Assembly: GCF_000223985.1 (NCBI RefSeq)
Contig: NZ_AFWV01000009.1
Span: forward strand, 124,001 to 188,000
Length of the DNA: 64,000 bases
Reading direction: 5' to 3'
DNA from: Thiocapsa marina 5811
GTDB lineage: Bacteria; Pseudomonadota; Gammaproteobacteria; Chromatiales; Chromatiaceae
The number at the start of each line of letters is the position of its first letter. Within the stretch, counting starts at the first letter, position 1. The notes below the pieces were generated by a model. That model had not been told where the DNA came from, made no database searches, and saw only the letters and a list, made by a program, of their open reading frames with translations. Positions 53,729 through 63,394 of the stretch are shown here, in pieces. A program made the position numbers and the translations under genes.

Positions 53729-53807
53729 GTGCCTGGTACCTCAGTGGATCGGAGAGTCGCCGGGGGTCGAGTCCGCAATGCACCCGCCCCCGGTCACGGC
53801 CGCCGTG

Positions 53808-55361: not shown

Positions 55362-56432
55362 TTAGAAGCGGATGTACGAGGAGCTGTTGAAGCTGGCCCG
55401 TGCGCCGCGCCAGGTATCGATATGATACTTGGTGAAGGGCAGCTCGACTTCCTCGAAGAACCGCGGCCAGCCGATACGCTCGATCCACTCGTTGACCCGC
55501 TCCCAATCCCGCGCGCCCTCTTTATACGCCTTGAGGATGCGCTTGACGATGGCGGTTGCCTCGGGCCAGCGCGGCGGGTTGTTCGGGATCCCGGCGGCGA
55601 CGAGCTTCTGGAAGGTCGGCTTGCCGCGGGCGTTGGAGTGGTTTCCACCGACCCAGATCGCCAGCTTGGAATGCTCGGCATCGTTGATCTGCATGGGCGG
55701 ACAGGGCGGATAGCAGGCACCGCAGCAGATGCACTTACGCTCGTCGACTTCCAGCGACGGCTTGCCGTTCACCATGGCCGGGCGAATCGCCGCGACCGGG
55801 CAGCGCGCGACAACCGAGGGGCGCTCGCAGACGTTGGCGACCAGGTCGTGATTGATCTTCGGCGGCTTGGTGTGCTGCACGTTGATGGCGATATCGCCCT
55901 GTCCGCCGCAATTGATCTGGCAGCAGGACGTAGTGATATGCACCCGATTCGGCATGTTGGCGTTGCGGAACTCGTCGATGAGCTCGTCCATCATGGACTT
56001 CACCACGCCCGAGGCGTCGGTGCCGGGGATGTCGCAGTGCAGCCAGCCCTGGGTGTGCGAGATCATCGCCACCGAGTTCTGAGTACCGCCGACGATGAAG
56101 CCAGCGCCTTCGAGCGCATCAATGAGGGGCTGGACCTTCGCCTCGTCCGTCACCATGTATTCGATGTTGGAGCGCAAGGTGAAGTGCACATAGCCCTCGG
56201 CGAATTCATCACCGATATCACACAGCTTGCGCAGGGTGAAGACATCGAGGATCCGCTGGGTGCCGGCCTTGATGGTCCAGATCTTATCGCCGCTGTAGGC
56301 GACGTGCAGTAGAACTCCCGGCCGGGGATGGTCGTGATACTTCCACTGGCCAAAGTTTTTACGCATCATCGGATGCATGTATTGCCAGGGATCAGGGCAT
56401 CCGGATTCGATCGGCTCACGCATGTCTGCCAT
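55362..56432 (-). CDS. dsrB: DsrB, reverse dissimilatory sulfite reductase beta subunit
   Basis: 356 residues. The sirohaem/4Fe-4S ligand region is VHITTSCCQINCGGQGDIA, and the inserted ferredoxin domain carries CICCGACYPPCPP. The start is ATG at 56432 with GGAGTAAAGGCG upstream. With DsrA it forms the cytoplasmic alpha2-beta2 enzyme that oxidises DsrC-bound sulfur to sulfite. It is separated from dsrA by about 106 bp. Confidence 0.97.
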   Translation of the reverse strand: MADMREPIESGCPDPWQYMHPMMRKNFGQWKYHDHPRPGVLLHVAYSGDKIWTIKAGTQRILDVFTLRKLCDIGDEFAEGYVHFTLRSNIEYMVTDEAKVQPLIDALEGAGFIVGGTQNSVAMISHTQGWLHCDIPGTDASGVVKSMMDELIDEFRNANMPNRVHITTSCCQINCGGQGDIAINVQHTKPPKINHDLVANVCERPSVVARCPVAAIRPAMVNGKPSLEVDERKCICCGACYPPCPPMQINDAEHSKLAIWVGGNHSNARGKPTFQKLVAAGIPNNPPRWPEATAIVKRILKAYKEGARDWERVNEWIERIGWPRFFEEVELPFTKYHIDTWRGARASFNSSSYIRF

Positions 56433-56538
56433 CGCCTTTACTCCAATATTTCAGTCTGATGGTAAGTCAGTCGGCGGCACCCTCGGGTGCCGGCACCTCG
56501 GGATCTCGAGTGCGGCACCTACGGGTGTCGGTGCGGAA

Positions 56539-57792
56539 TTACTTGCCGGCTTCGGCTTGACGCTCGAACCACGCCTCGGCCGCCTCGTCCCAGCCGTCCA
56601 GTCGGACGTAGGAGCTTTGACGCGGGTGGCTCAGCATGTTCGGATCCGGCTCGATCCCGATGCCGTCAAGGAAATTAGCCAGGCCGATACGCTCGATCAT
56701 CTCGCCGCAGCGCTCGTGCTCCAGACCGTTCTCCGCCCAGAAGTCGATGATGGTCTCGGCAAGCTCGACCATGGACTCGTAGTCCTCTTCGGTTTCGAGC
56801 TTCTTGAAGGGCACTACAACCGTGCCCATCAGATCGCCGATCTTGAGGGTACGCTTCCCGCCGATGAGGATGGTGACACCCTTGTCGTCGCCCGGATGCA
56901 GTGCCTTCGGCATCACGTTGAGACAGTGCATGCAGCGCACGCAATCGCGGTTGTTGACCACCAGGGTGTTGTCGTCGGTCAGGCTGAGCGCCTGCGTCGG
57001 ACAGCGCGTGATGACGTTGTCGATATAGTACTGACGACCCTTGTCGGCGATGTAGTTCTTGACCTCGGCTTGGTCGACCTTCATGTCGTCGCGCCACGTG
57101 CCCAGCACCGCGAAGTCCGAGCGCTCGATGGCGTTCTGGCAGTCGTTCGCACAACCGGACACCTTGAACTTGAACTTGTAGGGGAGAGCCGGGCGATGAA
57201 CGTCGTCGACGAAGTTGTTGACCAGAGCGCGATGCGCCTTGAGCTCATTCGTGCAGGACATCTCGCAACGTGCCGCACCGACACAGGACATCGCCGTGCG
57301 TACGCAAGGACCGGCACCCCCGAGATCCCATCCGTATTCGTTGATCTCGTCGAAGAAGTGCTGGGTATTCTGACTGTCGGTGCCGATGAACATGATGTTG
57401 CCGGTCTGACCGTGGAAGGTCACGAGGCCCGACCCCCATTTCTCCCAGCTGTCGGCCAATTGGCGCAACATACCGGTCGAATAGTGATTACCGGCCGGCG
57501 GCTGGACGCGCAGCGTATGAAACTCTTTGGACTTCGGAAAGGCCTTACCTACCTCGGAGAAGCGCGGGATGATCCCGCCGCCATACCCGAACACCGAAAC
57601 GGTACCGCCCTTCCAATATCCCTTACGGGTCTCGTACGAGTGCTCGAGCTGACCCAGAAGGTCATTGGTCATCTCGTTGATGCGTGGCTCGGGATGCTCG
57701 TCGCGGAGGCGCTTGATGCCCGAAATGAAACTCGGCCAGGGGCCTGTTTCGAGCTGATCAAGCATCGGGGTACTGTGCTTCTCGATAGCCAT
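56539..57792 (-). CDS. dsrA: DsrA, reverse dissimilatory sulfite reductase alpha subunit
   Basis: 417 residues from ATG at 57792 (MAIEKHSTPMLDQLETGPWP). The sirohaem-4Fe-4S Cys ligands are in TAMSCVGAARCEMSC and KVSGCANDCQNA, and the ferredoxin insert has CVRCMHCLNVMP. First gene of the operon; the shared regulatory region lies at 57793-58203. The oxidative-type assignment comes from the dsrEFH, dsrL and DsrMKJOP context rather than from a tree. Confidence 0.98.
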   Translation of the reverse strand: MAIEKHSTPMLDQLETGPWPSFISGIKRLRDEHPEPRINEMTNDLLGQLEHSYETRKGYWKGGTVSVFGYGGGIIPRFSEVGKAFPKSKEFHTLRVQPPAGNHYSTGMLRQLADSWEKWGSGLVTFHGQTGNIMFIGTDSQNTQHFFDEINEYGWDLGGAGPCVRTAMSCVGAARCEMSCTNELKAHRALVNNFVDDVHRPALPYKFKFKVSGCANDCQNAIERSDFAVLGTWRDDMKVDQAEVKNYIADKGRQYYIDNVITRCPTQALSLTDDNTLVVNNRDCVRCMHCLNVMPKALHPGDDKGVTILIGGKRTLKIGDLMGTVVVPFKKLETEEDYESMVELAETIIDFWAENGLEHERCGEMIERIGLANFLDGIGIEPDPNMLSHPRQSSYVRLDGWDEAAEAWFERQAEAGK

Positions 57793-58203
57793 GGCGCTGT
57801 CTCTCCGAATCAGAATGAAGCAGGAAGGGATCGGGGTTTCAATAAAACCGGGTCGGACATGTGTTCGGCACGCAACCGATTGACCGAGTGTCTCGCCATG
57901 GCGCGGGCCGGCTGACATACCTGAATGGCCGGCGCACATCGAAACCTAGTTTCACCGAGACCCCATCGTCATTCGCTAAATTACCGGCTCCGGGGGCCGA
58001 CGCCCATTCCACGATTGGGAGGGCCATCAGCCGACGGACTATCCCATTCGGGATAGAGGCATGACGAGCGCCGCAGCGGGTGTCCTCCCGATTGTTTTGG
58101 CGGCGAACATGCTTGAGCAAATTGACAGGAGATGCTACATCCGGATGAAGTCTAAGTCAACATTCTCTAATATTCAGGTTTACTCATTTAAGGGGTACAG
58201 GCC
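57793..58203. promoter_or_regulatory. divergent regulatory region upstream of dsrA
   Basis: 411 bp between dsrA and the TauD-like gene, presumably with both promoters. A perfect 7-bp palindrome at 58041-58058 stands out, and TTGACA at about 58115 could be a -35 element for the plus-strand gene. In A. vinosum dsr expression is induced by sulfide, and DsrC binds the equivalent upstream region. Confidence 0.7.
58041..58058. promoter_or_regulatory. palindromic candidate operator in the dsrA upstream region
   Basis: CTATCCC (58041-58047) and GGGATAG (58052-58058) are perfect inverted arms with a 4-base centre. The site lies 249 bp before the dsrA start and 146 bp before the dioxygenase start. Symmetry and position suggest a dimeric regulator; no known consensus was matched. 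Confidence 0.5.
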
Positions 58204-59130
58204 GTGGACGACCCTTTCGCTCTCTCGCAAATCAGCGCCTATTCGGACTGGAGGGCCCGCAAGCTTCGGGCTTATCCAGCCGATATCGCCGACCTGCGTG
58301 TCCCCGTCGGGCGGCTCGACCAACCTACGGAGGCCGAGCGGGCCGCTTTGAAGGAACGAATCGATACCTTCAACATGGCCTTGGTCGAGGTCGATCCCGG
58401 TGGAATCCGCACCGATGCACTGCTGTCCTTCACACGGGCTTTAGGGCTTCAAAGGACGGATGCCAACCTCTTCGCCGATGCCTCGGCCGTGAGCCGCATC
58501 ACCGCGACGCGACGCGACCCCGGCGAGGAGCGACGAGCGGACGCGGGTCCCCGGACCCACGGCGGCGCCACTCTCGGCGACTTCGCCCCCTACACCGACA
58601 AACCGCTGAGCTGGCACACCGATGGGTACTACAACGCCCCGGACGGGCAGGTCGGGGCCTGGTGCCTGTTCTGCGTCCGTGCCGCACGTGACGGCGGGGA
58701 GAACAGCCTCATCGATCACGAGATGGCCTATCTGCGACTTCGCGATGAATCGCCGCGCCACATCGAGGCCCTCTCTCATCCGCAGGCCCTGAGCATACCG
58801 GCGCACATCCAGGCCGGGCGCACACTCCGCGCGCAGAGTGTCGGGCCTGTGTTCTCGGTGCGCAAGGGACACCTGCACATGCGATATTCGGCACGCGCAC
58901 GCCACGTCCTCTGGCGCGACACGCCCGACACGCGCGCGGCGCGGGACGCACTGGATCGGTTGTTTTCCCGCCCGGATGTCTTCACGTTCAGGTACAGGTT
59001 GAGACCGGGAGAAGGGCTGGTGTCGAACAACGTCCTTCACTGTCGCTCCGGATTCAGCGACGACGAAGACCCTGCCAAGGCGCGGCTGCTTTACCGCATC
59101 CGCTTCCTGGATCGAATCGGACTCGACTGA
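58204..59130 (+). CDS. TauD/TfdA-family Fe(II)/2-oxoglutarate dioxygenase-like protein
   Basis: 308 residues from GTG at 58204, preceded by AAGGGGTACAGGCC. The iron-binding HxD is in LSWHTDGYYNAP, the distal His in NNVLHCRSGFSDD, and the 2-oxoglutarate Arg probably in RLLYRIRFLDR. These enzymes hydroxylate small molecules, TauD releasing sulfite from taurine. Being divergent from dsrA suggests a sulfur-linked role, but the substrate is unknown. Confidence 0.82.
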   Translation: MDDPFALSQISAYSDWRARKLRAYPADIADLRVPVGRLDQPTEAERAALKERIDTFNMALVEVDPGGIRTDALLSFTRALGLQRTDANLFADASAVSRITATRRDPGEERRADAGPRTHGGATLGDFAPYTDKPLSWHTDGYYNAPDGQVGAWCLFCVRAARDGGENSLIDHEMAYLRLRDESPRHIEALSHPQALSIPAHIQAGRTLRAQSVGPVFSVRKGHLHMRYSARARHVLWRDTPDTRAARDALDRLFSRPDVFTFRYRLRPGEGLVSNNVLHCRSGFSDDEDPAKARLLYRIRFLDRIGLD

Positions 59131-59294
59131 GGTTCGACCGAAGCGGTCGAGGCGCGCCACCGACCGGCGGATCGGCCTGGACCCGTCGCCGTGTACCGAC
59201 AAAATAACGAGACACCGACCCGCAAGCGCGAAGATGCCGACCGGGCGAAGGTCTCAACATCAACCCAACGACAAAGGAGCAGTAGCGGCGACCC

Positions 59295-59486
59295 ATGCTC
59301 AAGCTCAGCGAGATACTGGTTTCCAATCAAGACATCGAATCCTTCGACGAGCTCGTCCCCGTCATCCAGGCGGTCGCGCGTTCGGGCGAACGCTTCTTCA
59401 GGATGGACGTCAAGCCCCCCTACCCCGACACCCCGGACAATTGGGAGGACCGTCTCGAGGCGGCCTTCAGCGGGCTCGTCCGATGA
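59295..59486 (+). CDS. small protein of unknown function
   Basis: 63 residues (MLKLSEILVSNQDIESFDEL, then GERFFRMDVKPPYPDTPDNW). No recognised family or motif. AAAGGAGCAGTAGCG lies upstream of the ATG, a good ribosome site. It is followed 49 bp later by another unknown gene and then by the Cas6-like gene on the same strand, so all three may form an operon. Confidence 0.7.
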   Translation: MLKLSEILVSNQDIESFDELVPVIQAVARSGERFFRMDVKPPYPDTPDNWEDRLEAAFSGLVR

Positions 59487-59535
59487 TCTCCGAGTCCAGA
59501 TCCGAGCATCGCCCGGAGCGCATGAGGGCGCCATC

Positions 59536-60255
59536 ATGAAACAGTTCGACGTCCTGGCAACGCAGATTGCCGATACCGCGGCCGATTCGATCATTAATCG
59601 CAGTGCCGAGAACGCATCGCTCGAGTCGCACTTGAAGATGCAGCAGGATCGGCTGAAGAATCTCCTTCAGATCCATGCCCCCGGGCACGCGATCGCGGAC
59701 GCCCGGCTGCAGGTCGCACGCACGCTGGTGAGTCTGGAGCGAGGCGAAGAGGCTTGGCCCATCGGCCGTGCGGCCTTCGACCATTTCATCGCACACGACT
59801 CCTTCGAGCTCGCCGCCGACGCCTGCGATGTTTTGTTTCAGGCCGGCCAAGAGGAGTCGCTCGTTGCGCTCGGCCAAGGGATCTGGCTCGCCGTGACATG
59901 CCCAATCGATCCGGAGCTGACGATCGAGCTGCTCGGTCACGTGATCGACGAGACGCCCGACGACGCCGACGGTGCCGCGGTCGCCGCAACCACGGCACTC
60001 TTTATCGCCGACGTCCGCGCCCGAGACCGTCAACGCGACGATCTCATGTTCTTTGCGACCCAAATGCTCGGCACGGTTGCACGACGACACAGCGGCGTCG
60101 ACTCACCCGAGCAGCTCGAGAACTGGATGGAGCGCCTCGAGCTCAAGGAGCCGGAGAAGTTTCTGGTCCGCTTGCGCAACGTGGTCGATGTCCTTGTTCA
60201 GGACGCATGGTGGTTCGACCGGCGAGCGCTGCAGGAACGTCTCCCGTTCGCCTGA
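59536..60255 (+). CDS. helical protein of unknown function
   Basis: 239 residues, mostly helical with TPR-like alternation (ARLQVARTLVSLERGEEAWP, LAADACDVLFQAGQEESLVA). No catalytic motif is visible. It ends 58 bp before the Cas6-like gene. Cytoplasmic by absence of signal or membrane segments. A scaffold or regulatory role is possible but unproven. Confidence 0.75.
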   Translation: MKQFDVLATQIADTAADSIINRSAENASLESHLKMQQDRLKNLLQIHAPGHAIADARLQVARTLVSLERGEEAWPIGRAAFDHFIAHDSFELAADACDVLFQAGQEESLVALGQGIWLAVTCPIDPELTIELLGHVIDETPDDADGAAVAATTALFIADVRARDRQRDDLMFFATQMLGTVARRHSGVDSPEQLENWMERLELKEPEKFLVRLRNVVDVLVQDAWWFDRRALQERLPFA

Positions 60256-60313
60256 GGGCATCCCGCTGCTTCAGACCCCGGAACATACTCGAGAGCACTC
60301 ACGGACACACACG

Positions 60314-61015
60314 ATGTTTTGGAATGACGACGACAACGCCGACCGGATTCGCGTGCCGGACGACATCGTCGATCTCCTTTTCGGGATCGACTGTAAGTGC
60401 ATCCCGGTCGACCACGCCTATCTGCTCGCCGACGCGTTGAGACAGGCGCTGCCCTGGATCGCCGAGGAGCCGGGCGTGGCCGTGCACTCGGTGCACGTCG
60501 CCGGGTCGCAAAACGGCTGGGAACGGCCCGAGCACGGGCCGGACTCCTATCTCGCCGTCTCCCGGCGGACCAAGCTCACCCTGCGGGTTCCCCGGCACCG
60601 AGTCGCCGAGGTGTTGCGCGACCTCCCCGGGACCAGGCTCCATCTCGGGGGCGAAGCGCTCGTCGTGCGCGCGGGCAAGACCAAGCCGCTCAGCACCGAG
60701 ACCACGCTGTTTTCTCGGTATGTTGCTCTCGACCTCGCCGAGGGGGCGGACGACGACGAGGGTGTTTTCCTCGAGACCGCGGCGCGTGCCCTCGCCGAGA
60801 TCGACGTTCGCGTACGCAAGGCCGTGTGCGGCAGGACCAACCGGCTCGCCACACCCGAGGGCCCGATCACGACACGCAGCCTGATGCTCGCCGGACTCAC
60901 GCCGGATGAATCCATCCGGTTGCAGCAACGGGGAATCGGTCGCCATCCCCTCCTCGGTTGCGGCATCTTCATCCCCCACAAAGGCGTCGACTCGGTCAAG
61001 CCCAGCCAGGGCTAA
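60314..61015 (+). CDS. orphan Cas6/Cmx6-like RAMP protein
   Basis: 233 residues. The layout matches type I-MYXAN Cas6 (Cmx6) proteins: an opening IPVDHAYLLADALRQALPWI, a VAVHSVHVAGSQNGW segment, LAVSRRTKLTLRVPRHRVAE, TKPLSTETTLFSRYVAL, a Ser/Thr-rich RSLMLAGLTPDESIRLQQRG and the C-terminal Gly-rich GRHPLLGCGIFIPHKG, which is the RAMP signature. Cas6 enzymes cut CRISPR repeat RNA. No CRISPR array or other cas gene is seen within the window. An N-terminal addition (MFWNDDDNADRIRVPDDIVD) is present. Family assignment is from memory of sequence pattern. Confidence 0.72.
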   Translation: MFWNDDDNADRIRVPDDIVDLLFGIDCKCIPVDHAYLLADALRQALPWIAEEPGVAVHSVHVAGSQNGWERPEHGPDSYLAVSRRTKLTLRVPRHRVAEVLRDLPGTRLHLGGEALVVRAGKTKPLSTETTLFSRYVALDLAEGADDDEGVFLETAARALAEIDVRVRKAVCGRTNRLATPEGPITTRSLMLAGLTPDESIRLQQRGIGRHPLLGCGIFIPHKGVDSVKPSQG

Positions 61016-61298
61016 GCACGGCTCGGCGCGGGCTCAGTGCGAGGAGCGCGCGCCCGCGTCCGAACAGGCACGGGGGCATCGCACCCCGGCCGCGGGACAA
61101 CCCTCCCCCGGTGTTTCATCTCCCCGCACGCTTCAAATGCGAGCCGCTCCGGACGCGGTTTAGTCAGTCGGATCACAAAAAAATGTGACGTCTGCATCAC
61201 AAAATCATAAAATTAGAAAGTTTAAATCAAACCCCAAAAGACGGGTAGATCGTCGCGTAACGACTCTTCCCCGCCGAGCAAAGACGAGAGGAGCAACC
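61016..61298. other. intergenic region with a repeat-end fragment
   Basis: 283 bp before the DsrC paralogue. It has a lone right-end-like motif GGACGCGGTTTAG (61151-61163) of the twin repeat family without a matching left end, then an AT-rich stretch (61178-61235) suited to a promoter. Confidence 0.5.
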
Positions 61299-61637
61299 AT
61301 GGCCATCGAAGTCAACGGCAAGACCATCGAAACGACCCCAAGCGGCTACCTTCAGGAGCTCGCAGACTGGAGCGAAGATGTCGCGATGAAGCTCGCGGAG
61401 ATCGAGGGCATCACCTTGACCGACAAACACTGGGACGTCATCAACTATCTGAGGAGCGAGTACCACGACAACGCCCAGAACCAACCCATGGAGCGCGTGG
61501 TTCTGAAAGAAATGGCCAAGAAGTGGGGCACCAAACCCACGAGCAAGGATCTCTACACCCTCTTCCCGCTCGCACCGACCAAACAAGGCACCAAGATCGC
61601 GGGTTTGCCCGAGGTGCTGCGCAAGGGCGGTTACTGA
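61299..61637 (+). CDS. DsrC/TusE-family protein lacking cysteines (RspA-like)
   Basis: 112 residues from ATG at 61299 with GAGAGGAGCAACC upstream. It aligns with DsrC throughout (LTDKHWDVINYLRSEY, KDLYTLFPLAP, KIAGLP), but the C-terminal arm reads TKQGTKIAGLPEVLRKGGY. Both redox Cys are gone, and there is no Cys in the whole protein. DsrC-family members of this sort have been called RspA and proposed to be regulatory. It cannot carry sulfur by the usual chemistry, so DNA or protein binding is more likely. Confidence 0.88.
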   Translation: MAIEVNGKTIETTPSGYLQELADWSEDVAMKLAEIEGITLTDKHWDVINYLRSEYHDNAQNQPMERVVLKEMAKKWGTKPTSKDLYTLFPLAPTKQGTKIAGLPEVLRKGGY

Positions 61638-62185
61638 AGCGACCGGCCGCGCTCGTCGCACGATCCACGGACGGATCAAAACAACCCGCCTCGACCGGAA
61701 CGCGCTCGGAGCATGCCGTTGAACCCGGATCCGGCATTTTGAACCGCAAAGGCGCAAAGGACACAAAGGAAAACAAGAAATTACAGGTTGGTTTTCCCCG
61801 CACCCGCCCCCGCCTCGCCGGCCGCCTCCGTATCCCGCGGTAAGCACGTCCCGTCCCGACCTTCCCGAAACACCCGCACTCGAGCGTGCCGCGCGAGCAG
61901 CACGCCGGCTGCCGACGCTCGACCGATCGATCGGACGCCCTCTATACCGCGTCACGACGAAGGTCGGAAGAATCCTTGAGCCCGACACAACATGAGAACG
62001 CCGCATTTCACTCTTGACGCAGTTTGGTCGCCAGCTGTCGCTCTCACTTGATCCAGATCAGTCTCGCCCGCTTCGCCGGGAGAACCCGGCGGCACGGTAA
62101 GCAATCCGCCTTTACTCCTTCGTGGATGCCGTATATAAATGCGAACGGTTGTCATTTGCTTTCGCATCGAGATGGAGCATCCGCT
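61638..62185. other. intergenic region upstream of the porin gene
   Basis: 548 bp with no supported gene. It contains the fragment AACCGCAAAGGCGCAAAGGA (61742-61761), part of a widespread short intergenic motif, and an AT-rich segment before 62186 with the porin promoter. Confidence 0.4.
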
Positions 62186-63394
62186 ATGTATCGCATCAAA
62201 CACCCCGCCGACCCTAGCCTCGTTCTTGCCGCGCTGACCTCCGGTCTACTTGTCGCATCGGCAGCCCCGAGCTGGGCCTACGACGTCACCGACAACTTCT
62301 CGATCGGCGCGGTGTTGGGCGCGGCGGGTCAGTGCCAGGAGGGGCTCGGCGGATTGGTCGACGAGGCCGGGCAGTCGCTGGAGGGAGACACCTGCCGCGG
62401 CGGCATGCCGTTTCAGCTCGAGATGAGCTTTCGCCCGAGCGAGCGCGACGAGCTCTACGCCCTGCTCGGCTTCGCCGTGGACAACGGCCTGAACGCCGTC
62501 TCGCCCTTCGTGCTCGCGCCCTGGGCGGTCGATCTCGAGGACGATCTGCAGGACATCAACGGGCGCGGCCGCGACTATCTGCTGCAGGCTTGGTACAAGC
62601 ACACCTTCACGCTGGGCGAGGACGCCACCCTCGGCGCCACCTTCGGCATCATCGACTCCACCGGCTATCTCGACGAGAACGCCTACGCCAACGACGAGTT
62701 CACCCAGTTCATGAACGAGGCGTTCGTGAACTCCGGCGGCTTCAATCTGCCCTCCTACGACGCCGGCGCGGCGCTCGAGCTAGCACTGGGGGACTGGGAG
62801 ATCACCGCCGCGGCATTGAACATCGGCGAGAACGACGACGGCAACAACTACAATTTCTGGGGCGCACAGCTCGGCTATCGTCTCGATACCGCACTCGGCG
62901 AAGGCAACTATCGCGCCGTGATCACCGGCACCTCCTCGGCCTTCTTCAAGCCGGGCGCGCCCCTCGGCGAGGAGCCGGAAGGGACCGAGGACGGGTCGCC
63001 GCTCGCCGCCGAGGACACCCCGGAGAAGACCGATCTGATGGGCTACGGGCTGTCCTTCGACCAGGCCCTCGGCGATCGTCTCGGTGCCTTCCTGCGCATG
63101 AGCTGGACCGATCATGAGGACATTCTCGACTACCGCGGGCTTTACACCGGCGGCCTGAACATCGGCGGCGGTCTCTGGGGCCGCGAAGCCGACAACGTCG
63201 GCATCGCCTACGGCTACCTCGACGGCGCCAACACCGGGATCGCCAACACCAACGTGGCCGAAATCTACTACCGTTTCGCCGCCAACGACTTCCTCGCTCT
63301 CACCGCCGACGTTCAGTATATGGCCGACGCCTACGACAGCGGCGAGGACATCGAGGGCTGGATCTTCGGACTGCGCCTGGTGGCGGGGCTTTGA
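62186..63394 (+). CDS. outer-membrane porin (OprB-like carbohydrate porin)
   Basis: 402 residues from ATG at 62186. A signal peptide ends at SAAPSWA. The mature protein has alternating beta-strand composition with Gly/Asp/Asn-rich turns (LGDWEITAAALNIGENDDGN), YYRFAANDFLALTADVQYMA near the end and a C-terminal strand IFGLRLVAGL. It resembles OprB-type porins that let sugars or other solutes cross the outer membrane. A Cys pair (QCQEG, DTCRGG) may form a disulfide. Substrate unknown. Confidence 0.82.
   Translation: MYRIKHPADPSLVLAALTSGLLVASAAPSWAYDVTDNFSIGAVLGAAGQCQEGLGGLVDEAGQSLEGDTCRGGMPFQLEMSFRPSERDELYALLGFAVDNGLNAVSPFVLAPWAVDLEDDLQDINGRGRDYLLQAWYKHTFTLGEDATLGATFGIIDSTGYLDENAYANDEFTQFMNEAFVNSGGFNLPSYDAGAALELALGDWEITAAALNIGENDDGNNYNFWGAQLGYRLDTALGEGNYRAVITGTSSAFFKPGAPLGEEPEGTEDGSPLAAEDTPEKTDLMGYGLSFDQALGDRLGAFLRMSWTDHEDILDYRGLYTGGLNIGGGLWGREADNVGIAYGYLDGANTGIANTNVAEIYYRFAANDFLALTADVQYMADAYDSGEDIEGWIFGLRLVAGL

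Follow-up and report, generated by a model that had tools for sequence, protein, structure and literature searches.

What does a Cas6-family protein, a member of the textbook family of RNA-cutting CRISPR enzymes, do beside the dsr operon of Thiocapsa marina 5811? The present work addresses this question by examining the locus itself, its counterparts in other genomes and the candidate RNAs around it. The window, i.e. the whole stretch of DNA which was analyzed, comprises 64,000 nucleotides (124001-188000 of contig C54) of a genome of 5.6 Mb in 62 contigs, and the genes relevant to the question are listed below.

56539..57792, minus strand: dsrA, the first gene of the dsr operon (TIGR02064, 662 bits)
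58204..59130, plus strand: dioxygenase of the TauD/TfdA family, divergent from dsrA (PF02668, E 1e-17)
59295..59486, plus strand: protein of 63 aa with the consensus ..FFRmDVKPPyPDTP..WEDRLEaaF (alignment of 107 loci)
59536..60255, plus strand: ORF of 239 aa, predicted to be all-helical (structure model, locus survey)
60314..61015, plus strand: dsr-linked Cas6-family protein of 233 aa (PF09559, TIGR02807, Cas6 fold, His34 in 67/67 dsr-type sequences)
61299..61637, plus strand: DsrC/TusE-family paralogue without cysteine, ending in RKGGY (PF04358, E 7e-34)

Identity of the Cas6-family protein

The plus strand thus reads, in order, TauD, the 63-aa ORF, the 239-aa ORF, cas6 and the DsrC/TusE paralogue, the last of which stands behind a promoter-like stretch of its own. 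On the minus strand, dsrA is followed by genes which we take, by their order, to be dsrB, dsrEFH, dsrC, dsrM, dsrK and dsrL. The initial annotation of this DNA had described the same layout, with a three-gene set at 59295-61015, a DsrC paralogue at 61299-61637 and a divergent dsrA, and all of these are present; what it called the divergent neighbor of dsrA is the TauD-family dioxygenase (PF02668).

The protein encoded at 60314-61015 matches the Cas6 family PF09559 over residues 19-223 with 209.5 bits (Pfam, E 6e-62), above the curated cut-off of 26.7 bits, and scores 116 bits with TIGR02807 (cas6_cmx6), for which the equivalog cut-off is 98.85. PADLOC likewise labels it Cas6. Among solved structures, sequence searches give a single relative with a meaningful E-value, PDB 8fcj, the Cas6 of a type I-B CAST (E 7e-10 with the single sequence, 5e-24 with a profile). 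An AlphaFold model, for which 40 sequences were used, has a pLDDT of 88.3 and a pTM of 0.84, and the top 34 Foldseek matches to this model are all either Cas6 structures or chains taken from CRISPR Cascade complexes, with best TM values of 0.72-0.74 (8fcu 0.72, 8fcj 0.74, then 5yi6 and 3pkm). The protein had been described initially as a Cas6-like RAMP protein with an intact Gly-rich C-terminal loop, its fold being left to structure prediction; the predicted fold is that of Cas6, and the loop, with G209, G215 and G217, is intact. The alignments of homologues begin at the ATG at 60314 (MFW...), and the GTG at 59972 in the same frame is therefore an unlikely start.

The protein has its Pfam family, its fold and the Gly-rich C-terminal loop in common with both the type I-B "MYXAN" Cas6/Cmx6 proteins and the CAST protein 8fcj, and the His of the PxDH motif is common to the dsr-linked and the MYXAN proteins, whereas 8fcj has Asn there. 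MYXAN Cas6 adjoins cas3, both in a Thiocapsa operon described below (locus L068) and in six cyanobacterial plasmid loci, while the dsr-linked Cas6 adjoins dsr instead; most dsr-type members also carry an NGW..RP insertion and an N-terminal W motif, and they fall on a separate side of the tree. The more distant Pyrococcus furiosus Cas6, Cas6e (Cse3) and similar RAMP nucleases share the Cas6 fold (Foldseek matches 3pkm, 5yi6 and 2y9h), yet identity in the Foldseek alignments is about 12-15%, and their CRISPR context is absent around the dsr-linked protein. The full name of TIGR02807 is "type I-MYXAN CRISPR-associated protein Cas6/Cmx6", such that automatic annotation would label the dsr-linked protein a CRISPR gene; databases therefore probably hide the dsr-linked Cas6.

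Relation to CRISPR systems

No CRISPR array was detected in the 64-kb window by a crude finder, which registers exact 18-mers in at least three copies spaced 45-95 bases apart, and neither Pfam, a TIGRFAM-type model nor PADLOC revealed cas genes among the scanned neighbors of the window cas6. The original impression that the locus has no array and no cas gene thus stands for the finder and for the neighbors scanned. Across the dsr-type loci L032-L067 and L084-L163, the same finder flagged only L094, in which the three 18-mer copies lie inside an ORF.

The protein could, in principle, be a CRISPR Cas6 acting in trans on arrays located elsewhere in the genome. Its membership in the Cas6 family and the occurrence of Cas1 in 29 of 56 relatives are consistent with such a role, but we find it scarcely credible in light of the following. 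The genome of T. marina contains one PF09559 gene, no PF10040 Cas6 and one Cas1, and the Cas1 locus is a type I-G operon which encodes a Cas5-Cas6 fusion of its own and carries an array with 23 or more repeats. The initial annotation had pointed to a CRISPR locus lacking cas6 as the arrangement to look for; among Cas1-bearing loci, which the check covers, the sole one (I-G) thus brings its own fusion. In the relatives set, Cas1 is absent from 11 of 37 carriers. Nine of 14 single-contig carriers are without Cas1, and none of these nine has Cas3 above the cut-off, in a scan which consisted of Cas1 and Cas3; weaker helicase matches, below the cut-off, are present throughout the 19 genomes scanned for Cas3 and equally in 14/14 control genomes. 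Three genomes of 1.0-1.1 Mb (G073, G175 and G288), which retain cas6 beside dsr, have neither Cas1 nor Cas3 above the cut-off. Moreover, a genome of the same genus as the source (G002) carries, in addition to its dsr-linked cas6, a second, separate Cas6 with 31% identity (L068, C41), situated in a type I-B/MYXAN operon of the order WYL-Cas6-Cas3-Cas8b-Cas7-Cas5-Cas4/1 with an array of 26 repeats. Finally, the presence of cas6 tracks dsrA rather than Cas1, as detailed below. The dsr-linked Cas6 depends on neither Cas1 nor Cas3, and the I-G fusion, the carriers free of both genes and the tracking of dsrA together largely refute an action in trans on CRISPR arrays.

Two further candidates were tried and rejected. 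The repeat of the L068 I-B array has short matches only in the window, the best being 12 bases long (E 0.08). No dsr-type copy carried by a virus or plasmid was found: viral contigs and phages gave none, and the three plasmid matches are cyanobacterial Cas6 proteins annotated as CRISPR. As a separate observation, the Cas3 of the I-G locus of T. marina (L075:16792-19989, minus strand, C51), a protein of 1066 aa, matches the candidate defence model PDC-S04 with its residues 878-1055.

Co-occurrence of cas6 and dsrA

A class-wide sample of 274 gammaproteobacterial genomes was searched for PF09559 and for dsrA (TIGR02064, E up to 1e-30). The former was present in 91 genomes and the latter in 94; both occurred in 87, Cas6 alone in four, dsrA alone in seven and neither in 176 (Fisher p 2e-57, a value which ignores relatedness). 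In 4/4 of the genomes with Cas6 alone, the gene set is cut by the end of a contig on the dsrA side, and in six of the seven with dsrA alone, dsrA, or the tauD-63aa end, lies no more than about 0.7 kb from the edge of a contig. Ten of the 11 discordant genomes thus have these genes at contig edges, and G244 is a real exception as regards its dsrA copy: in this genome (L268, C8) some 14 kb upstream of dsrA are intact and contain no TauD, 63-aa ORF or Cas6.

Linkage follows the same pattern. When cas6 and dsrA share a contig, they are divergent and lie within 6 kb of each other in 65/66 cases, the lone exception being G143, a single contig of 1.45 Mb in which cas6 is located 43 kb away among housekeeping-like genes. 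The two genes are on different contigs in 21 genomes, and enough flanking sequence was read in G131 and G213 to show that cas6 is kept there though unlinked from dsr. A second copy of dsrA in G013 (L083) is without the TauD-63aa-Cas6 set.

The association is confined to one class in the genomes sampled. PF09559 has five carriers in a sample of 398 genomes from across the phylum; all belong to the same class and are dsrA-positive, and PF09559 is absent from 48 sampled dsrA-positive genomes of other classes, from which it follows that Dsr chemistry as such does not need Cas6. A nearby dsrC is present in five (L242-L246) of the 17 other-class dsr loci that were examined and missing in the remaining twelve, many or most of which may represent another kind of Dsr. 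Four of the five (L242, L244, L245 and L246) keep TauD and the 63-aa ORF beside dsrA with no Cas6 after them, which suggests that the TauD-63aa pair is a wider dsr association and that Cas6 is a class-specific addition. By eye, an ORF resembling siroheme synthase follows the pair in three of these four. In L259, L260, L261 and L271 of the phylum-wide sample, cas6 adjoins dsrA and the DsrC paralogue, and the 63-aa ORF was not found by search.

By its co-occurrence and linkage with dsrA, cas6 is a new member of the dsr neighborhood, and the association of a non-CRISPR Cas6 with dsr and dsrA is, in our judgment, very likely. It resembles the accessory genes of the reverse-type Dsr pathway (dsrN, dsrR and dsrS) and the DsrC/TusE paralogues in its location and in its co-occurrence with dsrA, but differs in being divergently transcribed and in its absence from the sampled dsrA-positive genomes of other classes. 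Among open PubMed Central papers, no report joining Cas6 to dsr was found by title or by the start of the abstract, and cas6 is not among the dsr genes named in the accessible sections of PMC4287430.

Conservation of the gene set and its partner proteins

Protein searches identified cas6 homologues in 37 of 56 relatives, the source genome included. dsrA is found on 31 of the 36 dsr-type loci (L032-L067). In three of the other five (L042, L043 and L059) cas6 is close to the start of the contig, in L053 (genome G035, C229) dsrA is absent from the 3.2 kb between cas6 and the upstream contig end, and 9 kb of L052 (genome G043) show the tauD-63aa-cas6 set without a linked dsrA. A survey of named genomes considered the best 80 of at least 571 confirmed relatives, a selection which is biased to close relatives and drawn partly from the same genomes as L032-L067. 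One gene order recurs across these 80 loci, with dsrA in 67/80, the 63-aa ORF in 76/80, TauD in 41/80 and the DsrC paralogue, downstream and in the orientation of cas6, in 65/80. A neighborhood survey had been proposed in the initial annotation for the set at 59295-61015, and the set indeed proves to be conserved beside dsr. Among the matches listed, the record titles name Thiocapsa, Allochromatium, Thiocystis, Chromatium, Marichromatium, Thiosymbion and Parabeggiatoa as carriers, Thiocapsa being the nearest named relatives, with near-identical records possibly omitted. G035 possibly has two copies of the 63-aa gene: the ORF occurs next to cas6 and a TauD fragment in L053 and again next to dsrA and TauD in L081 (C21), on another contig.

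The 63-aa protein has no Pfam match, and its C-terminal half is strikingly conserved in the alignment of 107 loci. An ORF of approximately the size of the helical 239-aa neighbor lies between the 63-aa ORF and cas6 in 68/77 loci; of the nine loci without it, eight have 14-42 bp between the end of the 63-aa ORF and cas6. The structure model of the helical protein is well defined (pLDDT 91.8), and it belongs to no known family, its best fold matches, none of them with an E below 0.02, being designed helical proteins or TPR-like ones. Its identification as Cas11/Cse2 was considered and is not supported: PADLOC Cas11e gives E 6e-4, the Pfam Cse2 model matches 2/41 sequences with a best E of 0.0025, and Cse2 is absent from the 50 listed fold matches.

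Cysteine-less DsrC-type proteins may be regulators. The DsrC paralogue next to cas6 scores with a TusE/DsrC model, and Cys is absent in 92/95 homologues at that place, a few of which are cut short, whereas the dsrC of the operon has the usual Cys-containing tail in 83/84. For a Solemya symbiont, dsrC homologues outside the operon which lack the two conserved cysteines are likewise described (PMC4287430). An inverted repeat, TGTGACGyCTGmATCACA (61184-61201), is located upstream of the Cys-less paralogue and is conserved in loci of the Thiocapsa clade, where it lies at a promoter-like site.

Conserved residues and selection

A comparison of 67 proteins from dsr genomes with seven CRISPR-linked PF09559 Cas6 proteins (L068 and the six cyanobacterial plasmids) shows that His34 is kept in 67/67 and 7/7, respectively. 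We take it to be the putative catalytic His at the first helix, an assignment made by position and from the biochemistry of other Cas6 enzymes. Since the CAST protein 8fcj carries Asn where the dsr-linked Cas6 has His34, this residue is no proof of catalysis. The loop residues G207, G209, G215 and G217 are kept in 65 to 67 of the 67 dsr-type proteins, G215 and G217 in 67/67 as well as in 7/7 of the CRISPR-linked ones; of the basic residues, R85 is found in 67/67 dsr-type proteins and R91 in 67/67 and 7/7. Other positions are typical of the dsr type, namely W3 (63/67), K169 (62/67), G173 (67/67) and K223 (66/67), and so is the NGW..RP insertion, whose W69 is present in 64/67 and which is a gap in 7/7 CRISPR proteins. 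The dsr-type proteins of L259 and L260 are without this insertion. In a quick maximum-likelihood tree, midpoint-rooted, with no bootstrap and only seven CRISPR proteins included, all 67 dsr-type proteins fall on one side of a branch (SH-aLRT 96). The dN/dS values for the 10 pairs among five cas6 genes of the Thiocapsa clade are 0.10-0.17; dsr-type cas6 is under purifying selection.

The same conservation and linkage would also be expected of a regulator which binds RNA and does not cut it, whereby the fold would hold a hairpin and control the stability or translation of dsr mRNA, and His34 would be structural. The conservation of W3, the NGW..RP insertion, K169 and K223 beside the family core, together with the Asn of the CRISPR protein 8fcj, speaks for such a regulator, but the retention of His34 in 67/67 exceeds expectation for a freely varying residue, and we consider this reading rather unlikely, if a serious one. 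In another view, contact with RNA may have been lost and the fold may now serve protein binding or assembly, possible partners being DsrAB, the 63-aa protein and the DsrC paralogue. The recurrence of the 63-aa protein and the DsrC paralogue in the best 80 of at least 571 relatives and the dsr-specific insertion are in line with this view, which we nevertheless judge unlikely, since R85, R91 and the Gly-rich loop are all kept.

Candidate RNA substrates in the dsr operon

Two intergenic stretches of the dsr operon would form hairpins of interest:

53729..53807, minus strand: dsrC-dsrM intergenic hairpin, candidate RNA substrate (folding beyond that of dinucleotide shuffles)
56433..56538, minus strand: dsrA-dsrB intergenic hairpin, weaker candidate (weak in several Allochromatium-type loci)

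Folding was assessed with 20 dinucleotide shuffles per sequence, each stretch being represented by its first distinct sequences up to a maximum of 70. The median z was -3.1 for dsrC-dsrM and -3.3 for dsrA-dsrB (70 sequences each). Conserved RNA structure was weak or absent in the dsrB-dsrE and dsrH-dsrC stretches, the dsrA leader, tauD-63aa, the interval between the helical ORF and cas6, and the region downstream of cas6; dsrB-dsrE is the least flat of these (median z -0.9, a third below -2). The dsrC-dsrM hairpin is predicted in most loci, its structure being kept while its sequence changes, and it may govern how much DsrC is produced. Six loci of the Allochromatium/Thiocystis type (L086, L089, L092-L095) have a weak dsrA-dsrB hairpin.

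The distribution of the dsrC-dsrM hairpin does not simply follow that of Cas6. In further Cas6-positive loci, the dsrC-dsrM hairpin has a z of -2 or lower in 14/18 and above -2 in 4/18, and it is not significant in the Cas6-positive L194 (z 0.5) and L198 (z 0.7); it is significant (z < -3) in 2/5 Cas6-free operons of other classes. No sequence is common to all post-dsrC hairpins, which sets them apart from the usual substrate of Cas6, and a motif common to the dsrA-dsrB and dsrC-dsrM hairpins of one genome was sought by eye and not found. A special link between Cas6 and the hairpin is made less likely by the lack of a common motif, by the Cas6-free operons with the hairpin and by the Cas6-positive ones without it. 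CCGG stands at the 3' base of the dsrC-dsrM stem in 12/62 sequences, compared with a density of 0.04 elsewhere in stems, the relatives not being independent; this enrichment is suggestive only.

The RNA which is processed might instead originate outside the dsr locus, for instance a small RNA or a tRNA with a part in sulfur transfer. DsrEFH and DsrC have homologues in the Tus proteins, which function in tRNA thiolation, and the score of the neighboring DsrC paralogue with the TusE/DsrC model is compatible with such a target, as is the persistence of Cas6 where it is far from dsr. On the other hand, no candidate RNA was found, and Rfam gave nothing credible over 56000-62300 (one non-credible match), and we regard an outside target as quite improbable.

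The palindrome upstream of dsrA

The initial annotation had speculated on a link between Cas6 and the inverted repeats of the locus. The repeat in the intergenic region of dsrA and tauD is the following:

58039..58056, no strand assigned: palindrome CTATCCC-N4-GGGATAG upstream of dsrA, a likely DNA operator (regional comparison)

Its exact copy is unique in the genome. At least 10 of its 14 positions are matched in 73/76 distinct divergent regions, compared with 9/76 shuffled ones, with the consensus [AC]TATCYC-N4-GRGATAG at 164-396 nt upstream of dsrA. The arms do not covary, as pairing is no better than with randomly dealt partners for any stem or flanking pair, and the one variable pair (C.A in seven regions, U.G in nine) varies in the manner of DNA half-sites. 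The distance from the palindrome to a -10-like box is 54-58 nt in 44/73 regions (1 shuffled), and a TTGAC-N-TA...T promoter occurs 58-129 nt upstream of it in 43/73 (1 shuffled). A longer dsr transcript from this upstream promoter would include the palindrome, which may thus also be transcribed. In G043, where dsrA and cas6 are unlinked, the palindrome remains with dsrA. In view of the lack of covariation and the fixed spacing to the -10 box, the palindrome was rejected as an RNA hairpin for Cas6, and the speculated link does not hold for it; together with the two promoters, it likely constitutes the operator and double promoter of the dsr operon.

A proposed role in sulfur oxidation

It is very likely that the protein is a domesticated, non-CRISPR Cas6 which is functionally tied to Dsr sulfur oxidation. 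It probably performs a job different from that in CRISPR, one in sulfur metabolism, and it likely acts on RNA. We propose that the dsr neighborhood acquired a Cas6 of CRISPR origin as a permanent member, probably at an early stage in the Gammaproteobacteria that possess the reverse Dsr pathway. In this role Cas6 would bind RNA with specificity for hairpins, probably with endoribonuclease activity that requires no metal. Its target would be a hairpin in some RNA on which Dsr-dependent sulfur oxidation relies, and it would bind this hairpin and, most likely, cleave it at the 3' base. Cas6 stays bound to its own product, and the expression of dsr is said to be controlled after transcription (DsrR). 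The simplest target would be the dsr transcript, in which, at a guess, a cut after dsrC and continued binding could tune the ratio of DsrC to DsrMKL. Cas6, the 63-aa protein and the Cys-less DsrC paralogue may jointly act as a regulatory module.

The full proposal, in which a recruited Cas6 cuts a predicted hairpin of the dsr transcript, is put forward tentatively, as the leading guess among the readings considered. That Cas6 was domesticated around the radiation of gammaproteobacterial sulfur oxidizers and now has RNA processing for the reverse Dsr pathway as its dedicated task, being kept even by genomes of 1 Mb, falls just short of being probable. If true, a CRISPR nuclease would have been turned into a metabolic regulator, domesticated for core energy metabolism, and an unrecognized factor would be added to the well-studied Dsr pathway. 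The clade of Cas6 proteins involved accompanies a metabolic operon at a ratio of about 1:1 across a bacterial class, and persists both without the CRISPR genes searched for and in reduced genomes. The dsr-linked cas6 is present in cultured purple sulfur bacteria such as Allochromatium palmeri and Thiocapsa imhoffii, and its role is thus directly testable.
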